DNA of 64,000 nucleotides, taken from assembly GCF_011302055.1 (NCBI RefSeq), contig NZ_CP049871.1:1446501-1510500 (forward strand), in the 5' to 3' direction. Within the stretch, counting starts at the first letter, position 1. Every line of letters starts with the position of its first letter. The notes beneath the pieces are model-generated. The model was not told the DNA's origin. It did not search any database and saw nothing but the letters and a program-made list of their open reading frames with translations. This DNA is from Sphingomonas sinipercae (GTDB lineage Bacteria; Pseudomonadota; Alphaproteobacteria; Sphingomonadales; Sphingomonadaceae). A program made the position numbers and the translations under genes. This document shows positions 7,716 through 55,690 of the stretch, in pieces.

Positions 7716-9176
7716 TTATTTCTTTGAAAATTTGTCGAAACCGGGGGGAAGATTGAAGCCGCCGGCACCGCCGCCAAGGCCCGGAAGCCCGCCGGCCGAC
7801 ATTCCGCCGGGGACCATCCCGCCCAGCGCGCCTTCAAGCCCACCCTTCCCGAACATCGCAGCCAGCTTGCCGAGGCCGCCCATCTTCTTGAGCCGCTTCA
7901 TGGCATTGGCCATTTCCTGGTGCATCTTGAGCAGCTTGTTGACCTCCTGAACGGTGGTGCCGCTGCCCTTGGCGATGCGGATCTTGCGCTTGGCATTGAT
8001 CAGCTCGGGCTTGGCCCGCTCCTTGGCGGTCATCGAGCTCATCATCGCCTCGAGGTGGACCAGCGCCTTGCCGTCCTGGGCCTTGTCGATCGCGCCCTTC
8101 ATCCCCTTGATGCCGGGCATCATCGACGCCAGTGCGCCAAGGCCGCCCATGCGCTGCATCTGGCCGATCTGCATGCGCAAGTCGTCGAGGTCGAACTTGC
8201 CCTTGGCCATCTTGGCGGCGAGCTTTTCCGCGTCTTCGACCTGGATTGTCTCCGCCGCGCGCTCGACCAGGCTGACGACGTCGCCCATGCCAAGGATGCG
8301 TCCGGCGACCCGTTCCGGGTGGAACGCCTCCAGCTTGTCGAGCGCCTCGCCAACGCCGGCGAATTTGATCGGCTGGCCGGTGACGGCGCGCATCGACAGC
8401 GCCGCGCCGCCGCGGGCATCGCCATCCATCCGGGTGAGGATAACGCCAGTAAGATCGACTTCGGCCGAGAAGCCCTTGGCGACGTTGACGGCGTCCTGGC
8501 CGGTCAGGCTGTCGACCACGAGCAGGGTCTCGGTCGGGGTCGAAGCGGCGGCAACCGCCTTCATCTCGCCCATCAACTGGTCGTCGACGTGCAGCCGTCC
8601 GGCGGTGTCGAGCAGGACGACGTCATACCCCTGCAGCTTCGCGGCCTGCAGCGCCCGCTTGGCGATGTCGACCGGCTGCTGGCCGGCGACGATCGGAAGC
8701 GTTTCGACACCGGTCTGGCGGCCGAGCACCGCGAGTTGCTCCTGCGCGGCCGGGCGGGCCACGTCGAGCGAGGCCATCAGCACCCGCTTGCGGTCCTTTT
8801 CGGTCAGCCGCTTGGCAAGCTTGGCCGTGGTCGTCGTCTTGCCCGACCCCTGCAGGCCGACCATCATGATCACTGCCGGCGGATTGACGTCGATGCGCAA
8901 TTCGGCGGTTTCGGCGCCCAGCGTCTCGACTAGTTGGTCGTGGACGATCTTGACGACCATCTGCCCCGGCGTGACCGACCGCAAGACTTCCTGGCCCACG
9001 GCCTTTTCGGTCGCCTGGTCGACGAAATCGCGGGCCACCGGCAGCGCGACGTCCGCTTCGAGCAGAGCCACGCGAACTTCGCGCATCGCAGCGCGCACGT
9101 CGGCCTCAGAGAGGGCGCCGCGGCCGCGAAGCTTGTCGAACACGCCGCCAAGGCGGTCGCTCAGGGTATCGAACAC
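7716..9176 (-). CDS. ffh: Signal recognition particle protein Ffh
   Basis: Ffh binds 4.5S RNA and signal sequences and targets nascent membrane proteins to FtsY. The 486-residue product has the NG GTPase domain: P-loop GLQGSGKTTTTAKLA near residue 105, DTAGR, and TRMDGDARGG. A methionine-rich M domain follows from about residue 325 (MPGIKGMKGA, KLLKMHQEMANAMKRLKKMG). The end is Gly-rich. It begins with GTG at 9176 and heads ffh-rpsP-rimM. The receptor gene ftsY is 2.6 kb away on the other strand. Confidence 0.98.
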   Translation of the reverse strand: MFDTLSDRLGGVFDKLRGRGALSEADVRAAMREVRVALLEADVALPVARDFVDQATEKAVGQEVLRSVTPGQMVVKIVHDQLVETLGAETAELRIDVNPPAVIMMVGLQGSGKTTTTAKLAKRLTEKDRKRVLMASLDVARPAAQEQLAVLGRQTGVETLPIVAGQQPVDIAKRALQAAKLQGYDVVLLDTAGRLHVDDQLMGEMKAVAAASTPTETLLVVDSLTGQDAVNVAKGFSAEVDLTGVILTRMDGDARGGAALSMRAVTGQPIKFAGVGEALDKLEAFHPERVAGRILGMGDVVSLVERAAETIQVEDAEKLAAKMAKGKFDLDDLRMQIGQMQRMGGLGALASMMPGIKGMKGAIDKAQDGKALVHLEAMMSSMTAKERAKPELINAKRKIRIAKGSGTTVQEVNKLLKMHQEMANAMKRLKKMGGLGKLAAMFGKGGLEGALGGMVPGGMSAGGLPGLGGGAGGFNLPPGFDKFSKK

Positions 9177-9359
9177 TCAAACTCTCCCGATGGTCGAGCC
9201 GCCCACATAAGACGCGACAACGCATTTTGCGCCGGCGGACGAAACCTCGTCGGCCGGCGTGCGCCCTCGGGCGCGACCATCCTTATCTGTCGAAAACGAC
9301 AAGCGGGCGGTTAGGGGAATTATCCGCGACAATCAACCGCGGCCGCACATCGTGCGTCC

Positions 9360-9788
9360 TTAGACGAGCTTCGGCTTGCCCTTCGGCTTTCGCCTCGGCC
9401 CGCCGCCGGGGCCGGAGCCCGGGCCACGCGGACCACGCGAGTTCGGGTCGCGCGGCGGACCCGACGGTCGTGGCCGCCGGTCGCCTGGAGGACCCCTGCG
9501 GTCGCGCTCAGGTACGCGGTCCATCGGCCGCGCCTGCTGCATCTGCTGGCGCGGGCCGACCGCATAGCCGTCCTTGAGCAATTGGGTGAACGCGCCCCGC
9601 GTGCTCTCTGCAATCGCGTCCTGCAGCGGCTTCGGAAGGTCGGCGAAGGTCACGTTCGGGTGGATCGCCTGCACGTCGCGAAGCAATTGGTTGGGAAGCC
9701 CCCCGGACGCACCCTTCAACGCCGCGATGGCGTCCAGCACAGCCGAGAAGATCACCGACTGCATCACTTCGTTCGCTGATCTTGTCAT
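9360..9788 (-). CDS. Hypothetical protein with Arg/Pro/Gly-rich tail
   Basis: A 142-residue protein of unknown function. Residues 1-75 look like a small helical domain (SANEVMQSVIFSAVLDAI, then a LLRDVQAIHPNVTFADLP segment). From about residue 85 the sequence is low complexity, dominated by Arg, Pro and Gly, ending in a Lys-rich KPKGKPKLV. Such basic disordered tails often bind nucleic acid or ribosomes, but that is inference. ATG 9788 is preferred over an in-frame TTG nine bases upstream. It is divergent from dapF and is followed by a 183-nt non-coding stretch before ffh. Confidence 0.65.
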   Translation of the reverse strand: MTRSANEVMQSVIFSAVLDAIAALKGASGGLPNQLLRDVQAIHPNVTFADLPKPLQDAIAESTRGAFTQLLKDGYAVGPRQQMQQARPMDRVPERDRRGPPGDRRPRPSGPPRDPNSRGPRGPGSGPGGGPRRKPKGKPKLV

Positions 9789-9849: not shown

Positions 9850-10650
9850 ATGCAACTCCACTTCCACAAGATGCATGGCCTCGGCAACGACTTCGTGATC
9901 GTCGACGCCCGCGAACAGGCGGTGACGATGGCGCCGCAGCTCGCCCGCGGCATCGCCGACCGCCACCGCGGGGTCGGTTGCGACCAGGTGATCGTGATCG
10001 GCAAGTCGGACCAGGCGGACGTGTCGATGCGCATCTGGAACCACGACGGCGGAGAGGTTGAATCCTGCGGCAACGCCTCGCGCTGCGTCGTTGCACTAAC
10101 CGGCGCCAAAACGATCGAGACCCCGGCCGGGATCATCGAAGGCTCCACCGCCGGACGCGAGTTCGAGGTTTCCACGGTCGAACCGCGGTTCGGCTGGGCG
10201 GACATACCGATCGCTTATCCAATGGATACCGCCTCACTGCCGCTGCAATGGGGCGAGTTGAAGCATGGCTTCACGGTCAACGTCGGCAACCCGCACATCG
10301 TCTTCTTCGTCGACGATCCGGCCACGATCGAGCTCGACCACCGCGGACCGGAGATCGAGAACGACCCGGTGTTTCCGGAGCGGATCAATATCCACGTCGC
10401 TGTGGTCCGCGAAAACGGCATCCACATGCGCTCCTGGGAGCGCGGCGCCGGCCTGACCCTCGCCTGCGGCACCGGTGCGTGCGCCACGGCCGTGGCGGCC
10501 ATCGTCACCAAGCGGGTCGACAGCCCGGTGGCGGTGCACATGCCCGGCGGGTCGCTGACGATCGCATGGGAAGCGGGGCAGCCGGTGCGAATGCGCGGCG
10601 CGGCGACCCACGTGTTCGAAGGAACGCTGGAAACGGACGCGCTGGCTTGA
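9850..10650 (+). CDS. dapF: Diaminopimelate epimerase
   Basis: DapF converts LL- to meso-diaminopimelate for lysine and peptidoglycan synthesis. The 266-residue protein has the two Cys-containing motifs of the family: ESCGNASRCV near residue 72 and LACGTGACATA near residue 208. These supply the paired catalytic cysteines. It also has the N-terminal FHKMHGLGNDFVIVDAR. Its TGA overlaps the TTG start of mtaB (TTGA), beginning a chain of overlapping genes that runs to the ABC permease. Confidence 0.98.
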   Translation: MQLHFHKMHGLGNDFVIVDAREQAVTMAPQLARGIADRHRGVGCDQVIVIGKSDQADVSMRIWNHDGGEVESCGNASRCVVALTGAKTIETPAGIIEGSTAGREFEVSTVEPRFGWADIPIAYPMDTASLPLQWGELKHGFTVNVGNPHIVFFVDDPATIELDHRGPEIENDPVFPERINIHVAVVRENGIHMRSWERGAGLTLACGTGACATAVAAIVTKRVDSPVAVHMPGGSLTIAWEAGQPVRMRGAATHVFEGTLETDALA

Positions 10651-11786
10651 GCATCGAGACCATTACCCTGGGTTGCCGTCTCAACTTCGCGGAAAGCGAA
10701 GCGATGGCCCGCGCCCACCGCGACGAGGCGCTGATTATCGTCAACAGCTGCGCGGTCACCAACGAAGCCGTGCGCCAGACTCGGCAGGCGATTCGGCGCG
10801 CCCATCGCCGGCGTCCCGACGCGCGGATTCTCGTCACCGGCTGCGCATCAGAGCTCGACCGCGCCGCCTTTGAAGCCATGCCCGAAGTCTCGAGCGTCCT
10901 TCCCAAGACCGACGCCATGGCGTCAACGGTTCCGGCCGGATTCCAGGGACATGTCCGCAGTTTCGTCGCGGTCCAGACCGGCTGCGACCATCGCTGCACC
11001 TTCTGCACCATCTGGCAGGCACGCGGCGAAAGCCGGTCCTACCCCTTTGAAGCGATCCGCGATGCAGTGGCGAAGGAGATCGACCGCGGAGCGCGCGAGA
11101 TCGTCCTGACCGGCGTCGATATCACCGACTACGAAGGCGGCCTGGGCAAGCTGTGCCAACGGTTGCTTGCCGCCGAACCGCGCTTGTCCCGGCTGCGGCT
11201 CTCATCGCTCGACAGCATCGAGATCGACGGCGCGTTAATGGAGCTGGTCGCGGGGGAGCGGCGCCTGATGCCGCACTTTCACCTGTCGTTGCAGGCCGGC
11301 GACGACATGATCCTGAAGCGGATGAAGCGCCGCCATGACCGGGCTGACGCGGTCCGCACGGTCGAGCAAATCAAGGCCGTGCGGCCCGACGCCACCATCG
11401 GCGCCGACCTCATCGCCGGCTTTCCCACGGAAACTGAGGATATGTCGCTTAACAGCCTGAGATTGATCGACGATTGCGATATCGTCGCGGCCCATGTCTT
11501 TCCCTATTCGGCACGTCCAGGCACCCCGGCGGCAAGAATGCCTCAGCTTGCCCATGAGGTCGTGAAGGCCCGCGCATCCCGCCTTCGCGAAGCCGCCGCA
11601 GCCCGCCGGGAGGCATGGCTCGACTCGCTGGTCGGCACCAGCCAGCAAGTGCTGATCGAGAACAAGTCCAAGGGTCACGGCCAGTCCTTCGCGCCCGTAA
11701 GCGTGGCGGGCAGCGCGCGCGGCGACCTCATCGAAGCTCGGATTGTCGAGCGCGACGGCGGCCAACTGGTCGGAGTAGCCGCATGA
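10647..11786 (+). CDS. mtaB: tRNA t6A37 methylthiotransferase MtaB
   Basis: A radical-SAM enzyme that converts t6A37 of tRNA to ms2t6A. The 379-residue protein has the N-terminal UPF0004 domain with its cluster-binding Cys (TLGCRLN, VNSCAVTNEA, VTGCASE). The radical SAM motif is GCDHRCTFCTI near residue 112. It ends in a TRAM-like segment. TTG 10647, overlapping the dapF stop, is the sensible start. The frame is open for 400 nt further upstream but only as a shadow inside dapF. It overlaps ftsY by ATGA. Confidence 0.95.
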   Translation: MSIETITLGCRLNFAESEAMARAHRDEALIIVNSCAVTNEAVRQTRQAIRRAHRRRPDARILVTGCASELDRAAFEAMPEVSSVLPKTDAMASTVPAGFQGHVRSFVAVQTGCDHRCTFCTIWQARGESRSYPFEAIRDAVAKEIDRGAREIVLTGVDITDYEGGLGKLCQRLLAAEPRLSRLRLSSLDSIEIDGALMELVAGERRLMPHFHLSLQAGDDMILKRMKRRHDRADAVRTVEQIKAVRPDATIGADLIAGFPTETEDMSLNSLRLIDDCDIVAAHVFPYSARPGTPAARMPQLAHEVVKARASRLREAAAARREAWLDSLVGTSQQVLIENKSKGHGQSFAPVSVAGSARGDLIEARIVERDGGQLVGVAA

Positions 11787-50963: not shown

Positions 50964-51884
50964 GTGTCACTTGGCGCTGACTTGGCAGAAATTGAACGGC
51001 GACGACCTTCGCCACCTGCCGAGTTATTCAAGTACGTCGTCAGCGACAGGATCGATGTTTTAGAAAACGCGCTCATACGTTTTTCGCCTCCGCTGAATAC
51101 CAATGACATCTTTGAAGTACGACAGACTTTCGATCTTATTATGGGACCGAAGATGCAGCTGCTTTTTGAAGAAGCGGCTGCAGAAGCGGACGTTGACGGG
51201 GGCATCAGTGACGCGCTTCGTGAATCCCCATTATCCGCGCTGAATGTCGATCAGGCCAAGCAAATGATGTCGGCAGTTACAGGCGCCAACGTTGAGCACC
51301 TGATGCGACGTCTTTTAGGCGATTTCATCGCTCAAATGCCTGCTCAGATGAACGCGCCTGAGAATATAGACCGACTTATTGATCGAGTGGCGGGGAAACA
51401 ACTTCTACTGTCGTTGAGCGAAAAATCAGACAGCTCCCCAATGTGGGCGCATTACGCTGGAAACTCGTCAGGGTTCGTCATTGCGTTTGACACCAGCTCG
51501 GATTTTTTTCGGCGGGGAGAAAATTACGAACTGCAGGGTCTTCATAAGGTCGCGTACTTCGACGGAAGAGTGCCTGAAATTATGGATAATCCGTATGGAG
51601 CTTTAATCTCCAAACAGGCCGATTGGAGCTATGAAAGGGAATGGCGGCTATACGCTAAGGTTGAAGATGCGTCAGTGATCACCAAAGTACAGCACGAGCA
51701 AATTCACCTAGTCCCATTTCCCCACGCTGCCGTGAGGCGAGTGATACTTGGTAGTCGCGCATCCGACGAGTTAAAGTGCAGTATTAAGTCGCTGATCGAA
51801 AGAGGCTATCCAGGAGTTCATCTGACACGAGCGACGCCCGACCGACGCTCTGCAACTCTCATCGAACTGCCTGTCGAAGATTAG
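50964..51884 (+). CDS. DUF2971-family protein, first gene of an AT-richer cassette
   Basis: A 306-residue protein with the DUF2971 pattern. The N-terminal LFKYVV ... IRFSPPLNTNDIFEV is the usual 'KY ... f..p..lNDpFe' block. KSDSSPMWAHYAGNSSGFVIAF and ISKQADWSYEREWRLYA follow in order. The family has no firm biochemical function; members are often in mobile or defence-rich regions. The start is GTG 50964, 11 nt after rpoD. Codon use (many A/T third bases) contrasts sharply with rpoD, indicating transfer. Confidence 0.78.
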   Translation: MSLGADLAEIERRRPSPPAELFKYVVSDRIDVLENALIRFSPPLNTNDIFEVRQTFDLIMGPKMQLLFEEAAAEADVDGGISDALRESPLSALNVDQAKQMMSAVTGANVEHLMRRLLGDFIAQMPAQMNAPENIDRLIDRVAGKQLLLSLSEKSDSSPMWAHYAGNSSGFVIAFDTSSDFFRRGENYELQGLHKVAYFDGRVPEIMDNPYGALISKQADWSYEREWRLYAKVEDASVITKVQHEQIHLVPFPHAAVRRVILGSRASDELKCSIKSLIERGYPGVHLTRATPDRRSATLIELPVED

Positions 51885-51939
51885 CACTCAAATTCAGCGG
51901 CGCTTGTTCACGGGCTGTTCCAGTCCTATAAGGCTCCTG

Positions 51940-53040
51940 ATGAAATGCGAGATCGAGTTCCTTGCAGTTGGCGACGCTAGCTGCGCTGGTGATGCAATTA
52001 TCGTCCGGTACGGGGACGAGCGACTGTGGGAGCTCATGCTAGTGGATGGCGGCCATGCCGCTACCGGCGAGAAGATTGTCGGTCACCTCAAGACATACTT
52101 CGGTGCCGATGTGACGCTCGAACACGTAGTACTGACGCATTCAGACGGAGATCATGCATCAGGCTTACGGAAGGTGCTGGAGGAAGTGCACGTTAGAAAC
52201 GTGTGGCTGCACATTCCGTGGTTTTCAGCAGATCCGACCCTTTTCGACTCGGCTTGGTCAGCAGAAGGCCTCCAAAAAGCCATTCAGAGAGAATATGACA
52301 TTATATCGGAGATCGTTGACCTCGCACATTCGCAGGGTTCAGTTCTGCACTACCCATTCACCGGCGCGTTGATTGGACCATTCTTCGTCTGTTCACCAAC
52401 CCTGTACGCTTACCAGAACCTGCTTCCGCAGTTCGACAAAACGCCTGACCCGAATGAAGCTGTGATCCGGGCGAGAAACATGTGGCTTGGGAAAGAGTCT
52501 CTCGCCCAACGGATATTTGGCGCAGCGCGCACATCGGTAGCAGGCTGGACCGCAGAAGACTGGCTCGATGAGCGCCTTCAAGACGGAGGGTTAACCAGCG
52601 CGAGCAATGAAAGCAGCGTCGTGCTCTACGGCCGGTTCGATCAAGGCAACGTCTTGTTGACTGGTGACGCCGGCATCAACGCGCTTACTTGGTCTGCCAA
52701 CTACCTTGAATCTCAGCAATTACCTTTACGACAATTCAGCTTTGTTCAGGTTCCTCACCACGGGAGTCGTCGCAACGTTGGGCCGACGATCCTCAATCGA
52801 GTTTTGGGGCCGATAGCAGAACCTGGCAGCGTACCTCACTTTTCTGCATTCGTGTCCGCTCCAGCTGACGACGCTAAGCACCCGCGTCGAATAGTAACGA
52901 ATGCCTTCCGACGTCGGGGCGCGAGAGTTATAGCCACCCAAGGGCAGGATAAAATACACTACGGCGGCTTCGGTAAGCGGGCCGGTTATGTCGATGTGAC
53001 ACCTCTGCCATTTTTCGACATCGTTGAGGAGTACGACTAG
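51940..53040 (+). CDS. ComEC-type metallo-beta-lactamase-fold hydrolase
   Basis: A 366-residue protein. Its metal motif THSDGDHASGL supplies H67, D69, D71 and H72. Further family marks are MLVDGGH near residue 34, a late GNVLLTGDAG with a metal Asp, and VPHHGSRRN. These match the hydrolase domain of ComEC/Rec2-like proteins, which degrade nucleic acids or nucleotides, but no competence channel is attached. ATG 51940 is preferred over an upstream extension. It lies 55 nt after the DUF2971 gene and 43 nt before a membrane-protein gene, all on one strand with AT-richer codons. Confidence 0.85.
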   Translation: MKCEIEFLAVGDASCAGDAIIVRYGDERLWELMLVDGGHAATGEKIVGHLKTYFGADVTLEHVVLTHSDGDHASGLRKVLEEVHVRNVWLHIPWFSADPTLFDSAWSAEGLQKAIQREYDIISEIVDLAHSQGSVLHYPFTGALIGPFFVCSPTLYAYQNLLPQFDKTPDPNEAVIRARNMWLGKESLAQRIFGAARTSVAGWTAEDWLDERLQDGGLTSASNESSVVLYGRFDQGNVLLTGDAGINALTWSANYLESQQLPLRQFSFVQVPHHGSRRNVGPTILNRVLGPIAEPGSVPHFSAFVSAPADDAKHPRRIVTNAFRRRGARVIATQGQDKIHYGGFGKRAGYVDVTPLPFFDIVEEYD

Positions 53041-53083
53041 TCACACGGTTAGCTATCAGTAGGGCGGTCGATGGGAGGCACGC

Positions 53084-53590
53084 GTGGACAAGCTGATCGA
53101 CAAGATCGATTCATATAACATTTTCAATTACTTCGTTCCAGGAGCGGTAGTTTTCGAGTTCGTAAGGGCGTTCCTTGGCAGTGCGGAGTCGACGGACATC
53201 CTATCTCGTTTGCTGCTTTACTACCTCACGGGCCTAACAGTTAGCCGACTAGGTTCGCTAGTTCTGGAGCCGCTTTTCAAGATGCTTAAGCTTGTGACGC
53301 ATTCGGACTACACTTCCTACGTTCTGGCCTGCGAACGCGACAAGAAAATTGAGCTATTTGTTGAGATCGCCAACATGTACCGAACAATCTATGTCGGGGC
53401 TTTAGTGTGTTTGGTGATAACGTTCGTTCTGAGTCCTCCTCCGTATTTTGTGGAGAACTTAATCAGCATCAGGATTGCTCTTGGGCTGCTAGCGATATTG
53501 TTCTTTTTATCGTATCGAAAACAGTCTGGGTACGTGAACAAAAGAGTTATAGTTTGCTCAAGGCCTGAAACGACGGTTTCAAGTGCTTGA
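53084..53590 (+). CDS. Small membrane protein ending the cassette
   Basis: A 168-residue protein with no family recognised. It starts DKLIDKIDSYNIFNYFVPG, then hydrophobic segments at about residues 16-32, 42-62, 103-122 and 128-145. A charged middle (YVLACERDKKIELFVEIA) and a short tail follow. GTG 53084 has a good GGGAGG site. It is the third member of the AT-richer unit; a membrane effector or anchor for the metallohydrolase is possible but unproven. Confidence 0.7.
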   Translation: MDKLIDKIDSYNIFNYFVPGAVVFEFVRAFLGSAESTDILSRLLLYYLTGLTVSRLGSLVLEPLFKMLKLVTHSDYTSYVLACERDKKIELFVEIANMYRTIYVGALVCLVITFVLSPPPYFVENLISIRIALGLLAILFFLSYRKQSGYVNKRVIVCSRPETTVSSA

Positions 53591-53597
53591 ACTCGCC

Positions 53598-53700
53598 ATG
53601 TCGTCACGGGAGTAAATCCCGTGACGTCGAAGCTGTCACCCTACGGGCGCAGCCCGGCCGGCACCCGATGGCTCTTCGCCAGGGCACAGCTCTCTTCGTC
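53598..53700 (-). repeat. REP-like two-hairpin element, copy D
   Basis: It contains GTCACGGGA-5 nt-TCCCGTGAC (53603-53625), a perfect 9-bp stem. This is linked to a GCCGGCCGGGCTGCGC-type core on the minus strand and a weak second hairpin. It has the same orientation as copy C and is inverted relative to copies A and B. Confidence 0.7.
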
Positions 53701-53711
53701 GGTGCGCTCCC

Positions 53712-54107
53712 CTACCCCCGCGCCTTCCGCGTCACCGTGACGTTGAGCACGCAAATGTCGACAAAGGTGAAGTCGAGCGCGCCGAGGTCGGGCGGGGTTT
53801 TGTACCAGGCCCACAGGTTCGACCCGGTTACCAGTTGGCACAGTGCGGTGAGCTTGATTTCCGGATTGTCCTTGCCCGGCTCGTCGGGGATGCCGACGCT
53901 AACGCCGCGCCACGGTCCGAAGCCCGTTCCCGCTTCGTAGCAGATCCGCAGGGTATAGATCGCCGACAATCCGGGGGCGACGTTTGCCGTCAGTTCCGTC
54001 GGCGCCGTGCGGATCACCTCGCGATAACAGTGCGGGTCGAGGTTCTGCAGCGTTACTTCCGGCGCCGGCTGGAGAAGCAGGCCGGCCAGCAGGATCGCCG
54101 TCTTCAC
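53712..54107 (-). CDS. Small secreted protein, paralogue 1 of a tandem pair
   Basis: A 131-residue protein beginning with GTG 54107 and a signal-like stretch (VKTAILLAGLLLQPAPE). It shares with its upstream neighbour the block IYTLRICY, then VGIPDEPGKDNP and an internal Cys in CQLV, and a terminal DICVLNVTV. The conserved Cys residues suggest a disulfide-containing periplasmic protein. No family recognised. It overlaps the stop of the neighbour by GTGA. Confidence 0.6.
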   Translation of the reverse strand: MKTAILLAGLLLQPAPEVTLQNLDPHCYREVIRTAPTELTANVAPGLSAIYTLRICYEAGTGFGPWRGVSVGIPDEPGKDNPEIKLTALCQLVTGSNLWAWYKTPPDLGALDFTFVDICVLNVTVTRKARG

Positions 54108-54511
54108 CGCCCGGCTCCCTCGATCGCCGCGGTCGGTGCGTCGCCGATCACCGCCATGCCGAGCACGCAGATGTTCATCGACGGGGTCGTGTAGGTTGCC
54201 GGCGGCGCTGGCGGAGTCAGCCACATCAACATCTTCGTGCCGCTGACCAGCTTGCAATCGGCGGCGATCAAAGTGTCCGGGTTGTCCTTGCCCGGCTCGT
54301 CGGGAATGCCGACGCGCACCGCCCGCAGCGGTTTATAATCGGCATAGCAGATGCGCAGGGTATAGATCGTCGTCGGGTCGGCCGGCATCTGGCCGGTCAG
54401 CTGCACCGGCGTCGGATGGGCGATCGTTCGATAGCAATTGGGCTTGAGCGTCGTCGGCAATTCCATCGTCACCGGCTGGGCCGCCAGAGCCATCAGCAAC
54501 ACTGCCTTCAT
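54104..54511 (-). CDS. Small secreted protein, paralogue 2 of a tandem pair
   Basis: A 135-residue protein with an N-terminal signal (MKAVLLMALAAQPV). It has the same body as the next gene: KPNCYRTIAHPTPVQL, IYTLRICYADY, VRVGIPDEPGKDNP, CKLVSG, MNICVLGMAV. The pair evidently arose by tandem duplication and is cotranscribed. No function recognised. Confidence 0.6.
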   Translation of the reverse strand: MKAVLLMALAAQPVTMELPTTLKPNCYRTIAHPTPVQLTGQMPADPTTIYTLRICYADYKPLRAVRVGIPDEPGKDNPDTLIAADCKLVSGTKMLMWLTPPAPPATYTTPSMNICVLGMAVIGDAPTAAIEGAGR

Positions 54512-54549
54512 TGATCGCTCCCCCTGCCCCGAGCAATCGCAAGCTAGCG

Positions 54550-54656
54550 CAGCCGTCATGGGAGTAAATCCCGTGACGTCGAAGCTGTCGGTCGCTTCGC
54601 GCCCGCAGCCCGGCCGGCATGCAGCGTCTCTCAGCTAAGCTGGCGCTTAGCTTCGG
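54550..54656 (-). repeat. REP-like two-hairpin element, copy C
   Basis: Hairpin GTCATGGGA/TCCCGTGAC (54555-54577, one G-U pair) and a second hairpin GCTAAGC-TGGC-GCTTAGC (54634-54651). They are joined by the shared core read GCCGGCCGGGCTGCGGGCGC on the minus strand. It lies between the secreted-protein pair and the HTH-like gene. Confidence 0.75.
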
Positions 54657-54703: not shown

Positions 54704-55423
54704 ATGCAGACCAAAGACAAGCCAGCCGCCGCCCGCGCGGAGCAGGGCCCGCCCGAGCCGCCGTTCGATTTCTTCAACCCCCACTACAATCCTGAAAAGG
54801 CCGCCGCCGGCGACCCCTTCCCGTTCGACACCGCGCAGTACGGGCTGGTCGATCCGGATCCCGATCGCGTCGTCGATTTCACGCCCGTCCCGCGCCTGCG
54901 CAAGCGCAGGAACGGCTGGGACGAGCAGACGCAGCGCCTGTTCATCCTTGCCCTCTCCGAATGCGGTTGCGTGTCCCATGCGGCGCGGGTGGTTGGGCGC
55001 ACGCCCAGCACCGCTTACCGGCTGCTGGAGGCGGACGGGGCGGAGAGCTTCGCCAAGGCGTGGGACAATGCCATCGCGCTCGGCATCGACCGGCTGCGTG
55101 CCGACGCGATGGATCGCGCGATTCGCGGCGCCTGGGTGCCGGTGGTCCGCCGCGGGCGGCTGGTGCGGTTCGAACATCGCCGCAACGACCGGCTCGCCAT
55201 CGGGCTGCTGTCCGGCCGCGACCACTCGATCGCGGAGCGGCGCGAGCAGGCCGCCACGCGCCGCCTCTACCGGATCAAGCTCAAGGAACGCGCCCGCTAC
55301 GAAGCCAAGCTGAAGGCGCATCGGGAGGCGATCTGGGCCCAGCACCAGGCGATCCTCGACCGGATCGAGCATGAAAAAGCCAACCCGCCCCCGCGCCCAA
55401 TGCCCCGCATCCGGCGGCTCTAA
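54704..55423 (+). CDS. HTH-like conserved protein of unknown function
   Basis: A 239-residue protein. Residues 65-130 hold a helix-turn-helix-like segment (RLFILALSECGCVSHAARVVGRTPSTAYRLL, then AFAKAWDxAI-type FAKAWDNAIALG). I associate this block with a sphingomonad hypothetical-protein family resembling small-terminase or transposon-type HTH domains. The rest is basic and helical (RIKLKERARYEAKLKAHREA). It probably binds DNA; role unknown. The stop lies in the left arm of a hairpin (55420-55458). Confidence 0.7.
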   Translation: MQTKDKPAAARAEQGPPEPPFDFFNPHYNPEKAAAGDPFPFDTAQYGLVDPDPDRVVDFTPVPRLRKRRNGWDEQTQRLFILALSECGCVSHAARVVGRTPSTAYRLLEADGAESFAKAWDNAIALGIDRLRADAMDRAIRGAWVPVVRRGRLVRFEHRRNDRLAIGLLSGRDHSIAERREQAATRRLYRIKLKERARYEAKLKAHREAIWAQHQAILDRIEHEKANPPPRPMPRIRRL

Positions 55424-55580: not shown

Positions 55581-55690
55581 CACAAGCGAACGCTTCGAAG
55601 AAGCGAAGCTTGTGCGAAGAGTTGGCGAGTATCGGCCGGCCTGCGCGAAGCGACAGGACCGACGTCACGGAATTCACTTCCGTGACGGCC
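55581..55690 (+). repeat. REP-like two-hairpin element, copy B
   Basis: First hairpin of nested arms CACAAGC ... CGCTTC-GAA-GAAGCG ... GCTTGTG (55581-55614), core CGGCCGGCCTGCGC, and second hairpin GTCACGGAA-TTCAC-TTCCGTGAC (55664-55686). It is the most complete copy. Confidence 0.8.

Follow-up and report, generated by a model that had tools for sequence, protein, structure and literature searches.

A ComEC-type hydrolase and a small membrane protein encoded after rpoD of Sphingomonas sinipercae form a recurrent gene pair and candidate anti-phage module

Results and discussion

Three A/T-rich genes directly follow rpoD

The DNA analyzed here, called the window below, is a stretch of 64,000 nucleotides from Sphingomonas sinipercae (NCBI RefSeq assembly GCF_011302055.1, contig NZ_CP049871.1, positions 1,446,501 to 1,510,500, forward strand), whose genome is a single 2.07-Mb contig. 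Our subject is a cassette of three genes within it, of which the second and third, encoding a hydrolase of the metallo-beta-lactamase (MBL) fold and a small predicted membrane protein, are proposed to form an anti-phage module. As stated in the initial annotation of the window, the three genes are co-directional and come right after rpoD, the first of them starting at the 11th base past the rpoD stop (50953), with gaps of 55 and 43 nt between them. In window coordinates they are:

50964..51884, forward strand: gene 1, DUF2971 protein (PDC-S31); GTG start, 306 amino acids (aa); matches to PF11185 at 2.8e-8 and to PDC-S31 at 2e-24
51940..53040, forward strand: gene 2, ComEC-type MBL-fold hydrolase (PDC-M48B), predicted DNA nuclease; ATG start, 366 aa
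53084..53590, forward strand: gene 3, small predicted four-helix membrane partner (PDC-M48A, phrog_11864); GTG start, 168 aa

The open reading frame (ORF) of the hydrolase begins at a TTG at 51904 in the mechanical ORF list (378 aa); the most likely start is the ATG at 51940 (366 aa), since the majority of relatives align from that point.

The cassette had been described as A/T-richer than its surroundings, and calculation against the flanks showed the difference to be present: its G+C is 0.518, against 0.654 for the window and 0.641 for rpoD, and none of 562 segments of the same size taken outside it (100-nt steps through the 64 kb) had a G+C this low. At third codon positions the G+C of the three genes is 0.51, 0.58 and 0.56, and that of rpoD 0.88. 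Among 61 relatives the hydrolase was found in this genome only, and the same was true of the full-length hydrolase among 396 genomes of the order, which held three weak partial matches in addition. The partner was found, among 385 genomes of the class, in this genome and as one weak partial match. The distribution of the hydrolase agrees with the horizontal acquisition that had been suspected.

The 13 relatives fetched for comparison share rpoD, 12 of them up to 13 bases or less from its stop, and none of the 13 aligns to 50964-53590. Because the genes that follow differ widely among genomes (loci L121-L133 and L136-L143), the end of rpoD is a variable site in the genus. Some of the genes found there are A/T-rich and defence-like, such as DUF4238 (L139; L122 below the cut-off) and TIR-TPR (L130). 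A STAND-like ATPase (L136, below the cut-off) and a TPR protein (L137) were also seen after rpoD.

All three cassette families are already present in PADLOC-DB 2.0 as defence candidates, a point absent from the initial annotation. Judged by these profile matches, the trio places two candidates with separate PADLOC entries, PDC-S31 and PDC-M48, next to each other; we take the prefix PDC to mean phage-defence candidate, and the two-part nature of PDC-M48 (PDC-M48A plus PDC-M48B) follows from the profile names.

The hydrolase resembles the nuclease domain of ComEC and has no channel

Gene 2 had been assigned to the MBL-fold hydrolases without the channel of ComEC. Profile searches bore this out, with a match to Lactamase_B (1.4e-8) and no channel domain. 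The match to PDC-M48B (PDLC04676) reaches 2.4e-90 over residues 15-375 of the 378-aa ORF, and weaker profile matches were obtained with LmuA (1.9e-21), Avs1a (2.1e-10) and RTasMBL (5e-17), the last being the MBL from a reverse-transcriptase defence system; all three are MBL proteins from types of system that PMC12799240 deals with. When the hydrolase profile was used to search the PDB, the nearest matches were ComEC nuclease domains (9ic4, 3.2e-14; 30bt, 1.2e-11), with class B beta-lactamases ranking behind them. The NCBIfam ComEC match of gene 2 scores 37 bits for a cut-off of 190, the 366 aa corresponding to the MBL part only.

In an alignment of 32 sequences, including that of the window and with identities down to 32%, the residues D36, H67, D69, D71, H72, D243, H273 and H274 are invariant. 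The positions given earlier for H67 and D71 are correct in the 366-aa numbering, which is used here. The motifs, and a segment considered below, are located as follows:

52138..52155, forward strand: putative metal-binding motif HxDxDH (H67, D69, D71, H72), invariant in the 32 aligned sequences
52198..52584, forward strand: residues 87-215, within an interval that exceeds its ComEC counterpart by about 74 residues; may gate the active site
52666..52668, forward strand: putative metal-ligand Asp D243 (TGDAG), invariant in the 32 aligned sequences
52753..52767, forward strand: PHHGS motif (H273, H274), invariant in the 32 aligned sequences

A metal role is attributed to these residues by analogy with the MBL superfamily and, as the putative ligands are invariant, the hydrolase is probably under selection as a metallo-hydrolase. 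Between the matched blocks, the hydrolase stops at residue 84 and resumes at 216, and 9ic4 stops at 84 and resumes at 142. The intervening segment thus comprises 131 residues in the hydrolase against 57 in 9ic4, and its conservation is below that of the core.

Database records from E. coli, plasmids and phages name the hydrolase 'ComEC/Rec2 family competence protein' or 'competence protein ComEC' (e.g. L144, 6525-7610, and L073, 2381-3466), and one phage record says 'tail protein'. The relatives of the hydrolase in this analysis show no channel, and proteins that bear the ComEC/Rec2 name without one may be misnamed.

The partner is a predicted four-helix membrane protein

Gene 3, 43 nt downstream of the hydrolase, matches PDC-M48A (PDLC04670) at 1.3e-44 over residues 1-155 and phrog_11864 at 4.7e-34; no Pfam family was found for it at E ≤ 1. 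Its earlier description as a multi-helix protein is in line with the AlphaFold2 model (pLDDT 88.6, pTM 0.81), which has four long helices (residues 13-31, 39-67, 88-115 and 126-159). The conserved polar or charged residues of the family are Y11, N12, R55, D86, K88, N97, R100, K146, Q147 and R154, most of which would lie on the cytoplasmic side according to the positive-inside rule. Neither His nor Cys is conserved in the family, so that the partner is not evidently a protease, and no relative was recognised when a related fold or PDB entry was sought.

The hydrolase recurs next to a membrane protein

Scanning genomes with peptide patterns of the window hydrolase yielded 47 hydrolase loci, which span Proteobacteria, Actinobacteria, Acidobacteria, Nitrospira and Saccharibacteria. 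Within 1500 nt, partner profiles identified a long partner (about 250 aa) at 37 of these loci and a short one, related to gene 3 of the window, at 3; six had neither and one was at a contig edge. Five of those six carry a third type of membrane protein, of about 235 aa, directly downstream of the hydrolase, and the sixth (L045) contains an MBL fragment. Since the third-type genes account for five more loci, 45 of the 47 have a membrane partner, the rest being the contig edge and the fragment. A neighbor of 120-320 aa with at least two hydrophobic segments was found within 150 nt of 30 out of 43 MBL genes, against 7 out of 153 controls, the controls being the remaining genes of these loci with a length of 300-450 aa. 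One locus, in a Castellaniella metagenome-assembled genome (L025), has tandem hydrolase genes (8419-9489 and 10001-11062), with matches to both the long and the third-type partner profiles.

Relatives of gene 3 are encoded by at least 19 viral contigs according to a pattern scan, and an MBL gene adjoins the partner gene in 18 of the 19 loci among the matches listed, the other one (L056) ending just past the partner gene. The MBL was recognised with the window hydrolase as query in 15 of them (weakly in L065) and through PDC-M48B profiles in L058 and L066; the hydrolase of L059 resembles that of L066 by eye. A second viral scan, with the hydrolase as query, gave 54 loci, of which 34 were strong; 28 of these 34 have a partner-profile match no more than 500 nt from the MBL. 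The order of the two genes differs between loci (convergent, divergent, partner first or partner last), so that their linkage is not that of a single inherited stretch.

The hydrolase is constant and its membrane partner varies

Related hydrolases are accompanied by at least three families of membrane partners, i.e. the short, the long and the third type. Six proteins of the long and third types were tested and matched no PADLOC family, nor any Pfam family above the cut-off; the presence of such further partner families beside related hydrolases is a new observation. Homology of the short and long partners could not be demonstrated. On a tree of 59 hydrolases, partner type changes 8 times for a minimum of 2, or 9 times for a minimum of 3 if the one row without a label is given a state of its own. 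The short type accounts for 5 gains or losses, all of them forced by starred branches. These counts are approximate, the tree being a quick maximum-likelihood one with no bootstrap and some long branches. Partner types are nevertheless clustered on the tree (none of 200 shuffles gave as low a count), indicating that partner exchange has been repeated yet not free. The window hydrolase itself, which has a short partner, is nearest to Methylobacterium hydrolases with a third-type partner and to a Dyella hydrolase with a long one, at about 60% identity. The enzyme is thus constant and the membrane protein variable.

The pair is carried by P2-like prophages and plasmids

Two annotated P2-like prophages of E. 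coli carry the pair in convergent orientation, flanked by the genes for the replication endonuclease (gpA) and the portal protein (gpQ). The pair also follows the replication gene in phage record LR595885, which stops ahead of the portal gene, and several viral contigs have the same gene order by eye. The gpA-gpQ interval is described as a hotspot of anti-phage systems, P2 itself carrying old and tin (PMC9122126); the words lactamase, MBL and competence are absent from the main text of that paper. One E. coli variant of the pair matches 44 of 5426 E. coli genomes, in 45 positions that are without exception chromosomal (identity is at least 99% for 21 records and 60-80% for 23). No match was obtained with a second variant, which came from a different viral contig. 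The hydrolase is present on 45 of 72,556 plasmid records and on 4 of 50,697 phage records. A Citrobacter plasmid of 5.5 kb carries the pair, and on a 9.9-kb Acinetobacter plasmid the hydrolase adjoins a 249-aa hypothetical protein.

Proposed function of the pair and alternatives

We propose, with a probability of about one half, that genes 2 and 3 form a recurrent two-gene anti-phage module, in which a membrane-held nuclease of the ComEC type would cut entering phage DNA. The initial annotation had remarked on the combination of a nuclease-like hydrolase with a membrane partner and on its likeness to defence cassettes. The first remark is sustained, and so is the second, which is backed by the PADLOC assignments to PDC-M48 and PDC-S31 and by the location of the pair in the P2 anti-phage hotspot. 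A role in defence is likely, as suggested by the PADLOC candidate status, the hotspot, the carriage by plasmids and phages and the kinship with defence nucleases.

According to this proposal, the hydrolase would cut DNA, and the four-helix partner would bind it at the inner membrane, keeping it off the chromosome or blocking its active site. Phage entry would disturb the membrane, upon which the partner would release or position the hydrolase. The extra segment between the metal-binding blocks could act as a gate, with the partner in place of a protease as the controlling element. SNIPE, Zorya and Kiwa offer an analogy, as they likewise join a membrane part to a DNA-acting part.

Several points weigh against this proposal. 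MBL-fold enzymes act on many substrates besides DNA. As neither a known fold nor a PDB relative could be recognised for the partner, its possible roles as a tether, a sensor, a pore or an antitoxin are indistinguishable. The 47-locus sample is uneven, since the scan patterns came from a single hydrolase, and the 19 listed viral partner loci are not independent cases, because several are near copies. The MBLs of L061-L064 are identical, and 14 contigs are common to the two viral scans. For six of the 34 strong viral loci the partner profiles gave no match up to 500 nt from the MBL: L152 and L179 are cut off within the MBL gene, L172 has another membrane gene directly after the MBL, the nearest partner match in L168 is 4.5 kb away, and L155 and L178 have none. 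The gpA-gpQ interval also houses partition and other non-defence genes (PMC9122126), for which reason the location is support rather than proof. Finally, we found no phage assay of the pair in the literature, our search of which left preprints and most subscription journals outside its scope.

A broader view, which we put forward tentatively, is that the pair belongs to a widespread modular immune family, in which a constant ComEC-type nuclease would be combined with exchangeable four-helix membrane proteins drawn from three or more sequence families. It would be a split ComEC turned from DNA uptake to the destruction of incoming phage DNA, and the kind of entry event that is sensed would depend on the membrane part.

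We considered the possibility that the membrane protein is a killer, which would open or depolarise the inner membrane upon infection (abortive infection), while the hydrolase would make, destroy or sense the trigger. The predicted four-helix structure, whose helices contain conserved charged or polar positions (R55, N97, R100, K146), is compatible with this, and in known systems an effector role is ascribed to the transmembrane proteins (PMC9122126). Yet, it is the hydrolase that is constant and the membrane part that varies, the reverse of what a constant killer with a changing sensor would produce, and the ComEC kinship of the hydrolase points to DNA. We regard this alternative as doubtful, though the most serious of those considered.

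It is less probable still that the pair is a toxin-antitoxin or maintenance module of plasmids and prophages, comprising a DNase kept harmless at the membrane. Such a function would suit the pair of the small Citrobacter plasmid and of the prophages, as well as the hydrolase that stands beside a hypothetical protein on the Acinetobacter plasmid. It fits less well with the P2 site, which is rich in anti-phage systems but, holding partition genes too, is not decisive by itself (PMC9122126), nor with the fact that it is in anti-phage systems that the closest defence relatives of the hydrolase are found.

The DUF2971 gene appears to be an independent passenger

The tight co-directional spacing of the cassette (55 and 43 nt) favors a third possibility, namely that all three genes constitute one defence system with the DUF2971 protein as an additional effector, much as the initial annotation had suggested. 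The identity of gene 1 as a DUF2971 protein is secure by the Pfam criterion (2.8e-8; 35.4 bits for a cut-off of 22). However, the association with the pair was found in no readable locus, and the idea of a three-gene system is not supported: no DUF2971 gene was found at the 47 MBL loci from genomes, with flanks of at most 10 kb covered, or at the 34 strong viral MBL loci, and neither an MBL nor a partner at 80 viral DUF2971 loci (flanks of at most 5 kb; 80 kept of 113 matched). Nor was an MBL or a partner found within 17-18 kb of two close DUF2971 relatives in the order, which are 50% and 52% identical to gene 1.

Some metagenome contigs of equal size could be taken to speak for the trio, since a size of 2807 is shared by a DUF2971 and a partner match and a size of 4528 by a DUF2971 and an MBL match. 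The size-2807 matches are the best DUF2971 match and the best partner match after those of the window itself, and come from the same source. For the top ranks, which were chosen after viewing the lists, one coincidence was seen against 0.12 expected and one against 0.07 expected; over the whole lists, by contrast, the figures are 1 against 0.57 and 2 against 1.13. A few close relatives may keep all three genes. We consider a single three-gene system improbable, and predict that the DUF2971 gene is a separate candidate, an independent passenger in the same site downstream of rpoD.

The model of the DUF2971 protein has a pLDDT of 93.3. Its best Foldseek match is a tRNA 2'-phosphotransferase (7yw4), with a non-significant E of 0.18, and four DarT chains are among the first 24 rows (E 1.0-2.6, not significant either). 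Both are ART-fold enzymes, and an ART-like effector is a lead only. Our literature search found nothing linking DUF2971 to defense and, on DUF2971 itself, only a genome reannotation.

Lastly, a mobile housekeeping or metabolic hydrolase with a membrane anchor would be in keeping with the diversity of MBL-fold enzymes, but is improbable in view of the patchy distribution (a full-length gene in just one genome among 396 from the order), the P2 hotspot, the carriage by plasmids and the PADLOC candidate status.

A palindrome near rpoD has no general association with A/T-rich cargo

The palindrome GTCACGGGAGTAAATCCCGTGAC occurs in the window at 53603-53625 and 54555-54577 on the forward strand and at 55664-55686 on the reverse strand. 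The 2.07-Mb genome contains 5 copies (up to 2 mismatches), 3 of them within 5 kb downstream of rpoD. It is rare in 31 genomes of the genus (0-6 copies each), yet is found downstream of rpoD in several, and in its variants the stem positions change in pairs. The palindrome looked promising as a border of defence cassettes around rpoD and in a first hand-picked set, but a 20-region comparison gave no support for this: with 20 further palindrome-centred regions, hand-picked from the remaining copies, A/T blocks were present in 4 of 20, against 4 of 20 control regions (3 of 19 once a masked control is left out; Mann-Whitney p 0.52).

Elsewhere in the same genome (L284, 3713-8702; C1, approximately 1809712-1814701), the type I restriction genes HsdM, HsdS and HsdR were recognised by eye, flanked by palindrome copies at 2349 and 10879. 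Downstream of the cassette, two overlapping, similar-looking frames without a Pfam family, possibly a tandem duplication, lie on the reverse strand at 53712-54257 and 54104-54559; a palindrome copy is located about 90 nt past the 3' end of the former, and another overlaps the 5' end of the latter. The forward-strand frame at 54704-55423 encodes a helix-turn-helix-like protein (HTH_29 below the cut-off) with two distant relatives elsewhere in the genome, and proteins resembling it by eye are found beside the palindrome in L122 and beside DUF2971 in L135.

Comparison with known systems

The closest listed counterpart of the pair is PDC-M48 of PADLOC, whose profiles are matched by both proteins (1.3e-44 and 2.4e-90) and whose genes adjoin here. 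It is, however, a computed candidate, and the long and third partner families found in this work lie outside PADLOC. Our searches found no paper on PDC-M48 or on 6A-MBL and, for MBLs with a membrane partner, only the protease-paired nucleases discussed below were relevant. ComEC/Rec2 provides the nearest solved relatives of the hydrolase (9ic4 and 30bt), but the channel domain is missing here and the membrane part is a separate short gene, for which no kinship with a PDB chain was detected.

Among systems that act at the membrane, SNIPE is a membrane-anchored nuclease, the anchoring of which spares the chromosome; it corresponds to the working idea proposed here, that of an inner-membrane nuclease cutting DNA during injection (PMC13190303). 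SNIPE is, however, one protein, with a transmembrane helix, DUF4041 and a GIY-YIG nuclease, and neither domain is among the Pfam matches of the cassette. Kiwa (KwaA and KwaB) and Zorya resemble the pair in combining a membrane protein with a DNA-acting part (PMC12904381). According to the same source, KwaB does not cleave DNA, whereas the enzyme considered here is an MBL hydrolase. No Kiwa or Zorya profile of PADLOC matched the cassette at E ≤ 1. PADLOC includes Kiwa models.

The MBL hydrolases of protease-Hachiman (HamM), AVAST 1 (Avs1a) and Canu (CanC) have been likened to the ComEC nuclease. In Hachiman and AVAST, the active site stays obstructed by insertions until these are cleaved by a partner protease, and the evidence in the same paper suggests the same scheme for Canu (PMC12799240). 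Gene 2 shares with them a ComEC-like MBL with an intact putative metal site, and has a weaker profile kinship with Avs1a and LmuA. It is similar in size to HamM (42 kDa; PMC12799240) and it also is longer than ComEC, by about 74 residues between the matched blocks. The difference lies in the partner, which is here a membrane protein: the three genes include no trypsin-like or caspase-like protease, and profile searches of genes 1-3 found no protease family. The word 'membrane' is absent from the main text of PMC12799240.

The pair would thus be new with respect to the characterised systems, though covered by PDC-M48 as a profile, because its MBL nuclease has a membrane partner in place of a protease. 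If the proposed function is correct, it would be a compact defence of about 1.7 kb, common to bacteria, plasmids and P2-like prophages and needing no protease or ATPase, and the variety of its partners would offer a direct route to what sets specificity, by relating partner to phage range. It would represent a protease-free branch of the MBL nucleases of Hachiman, AVAST, Lamassu and Canu, joined to the class of membrane-acting systems that operate at the injection stage.

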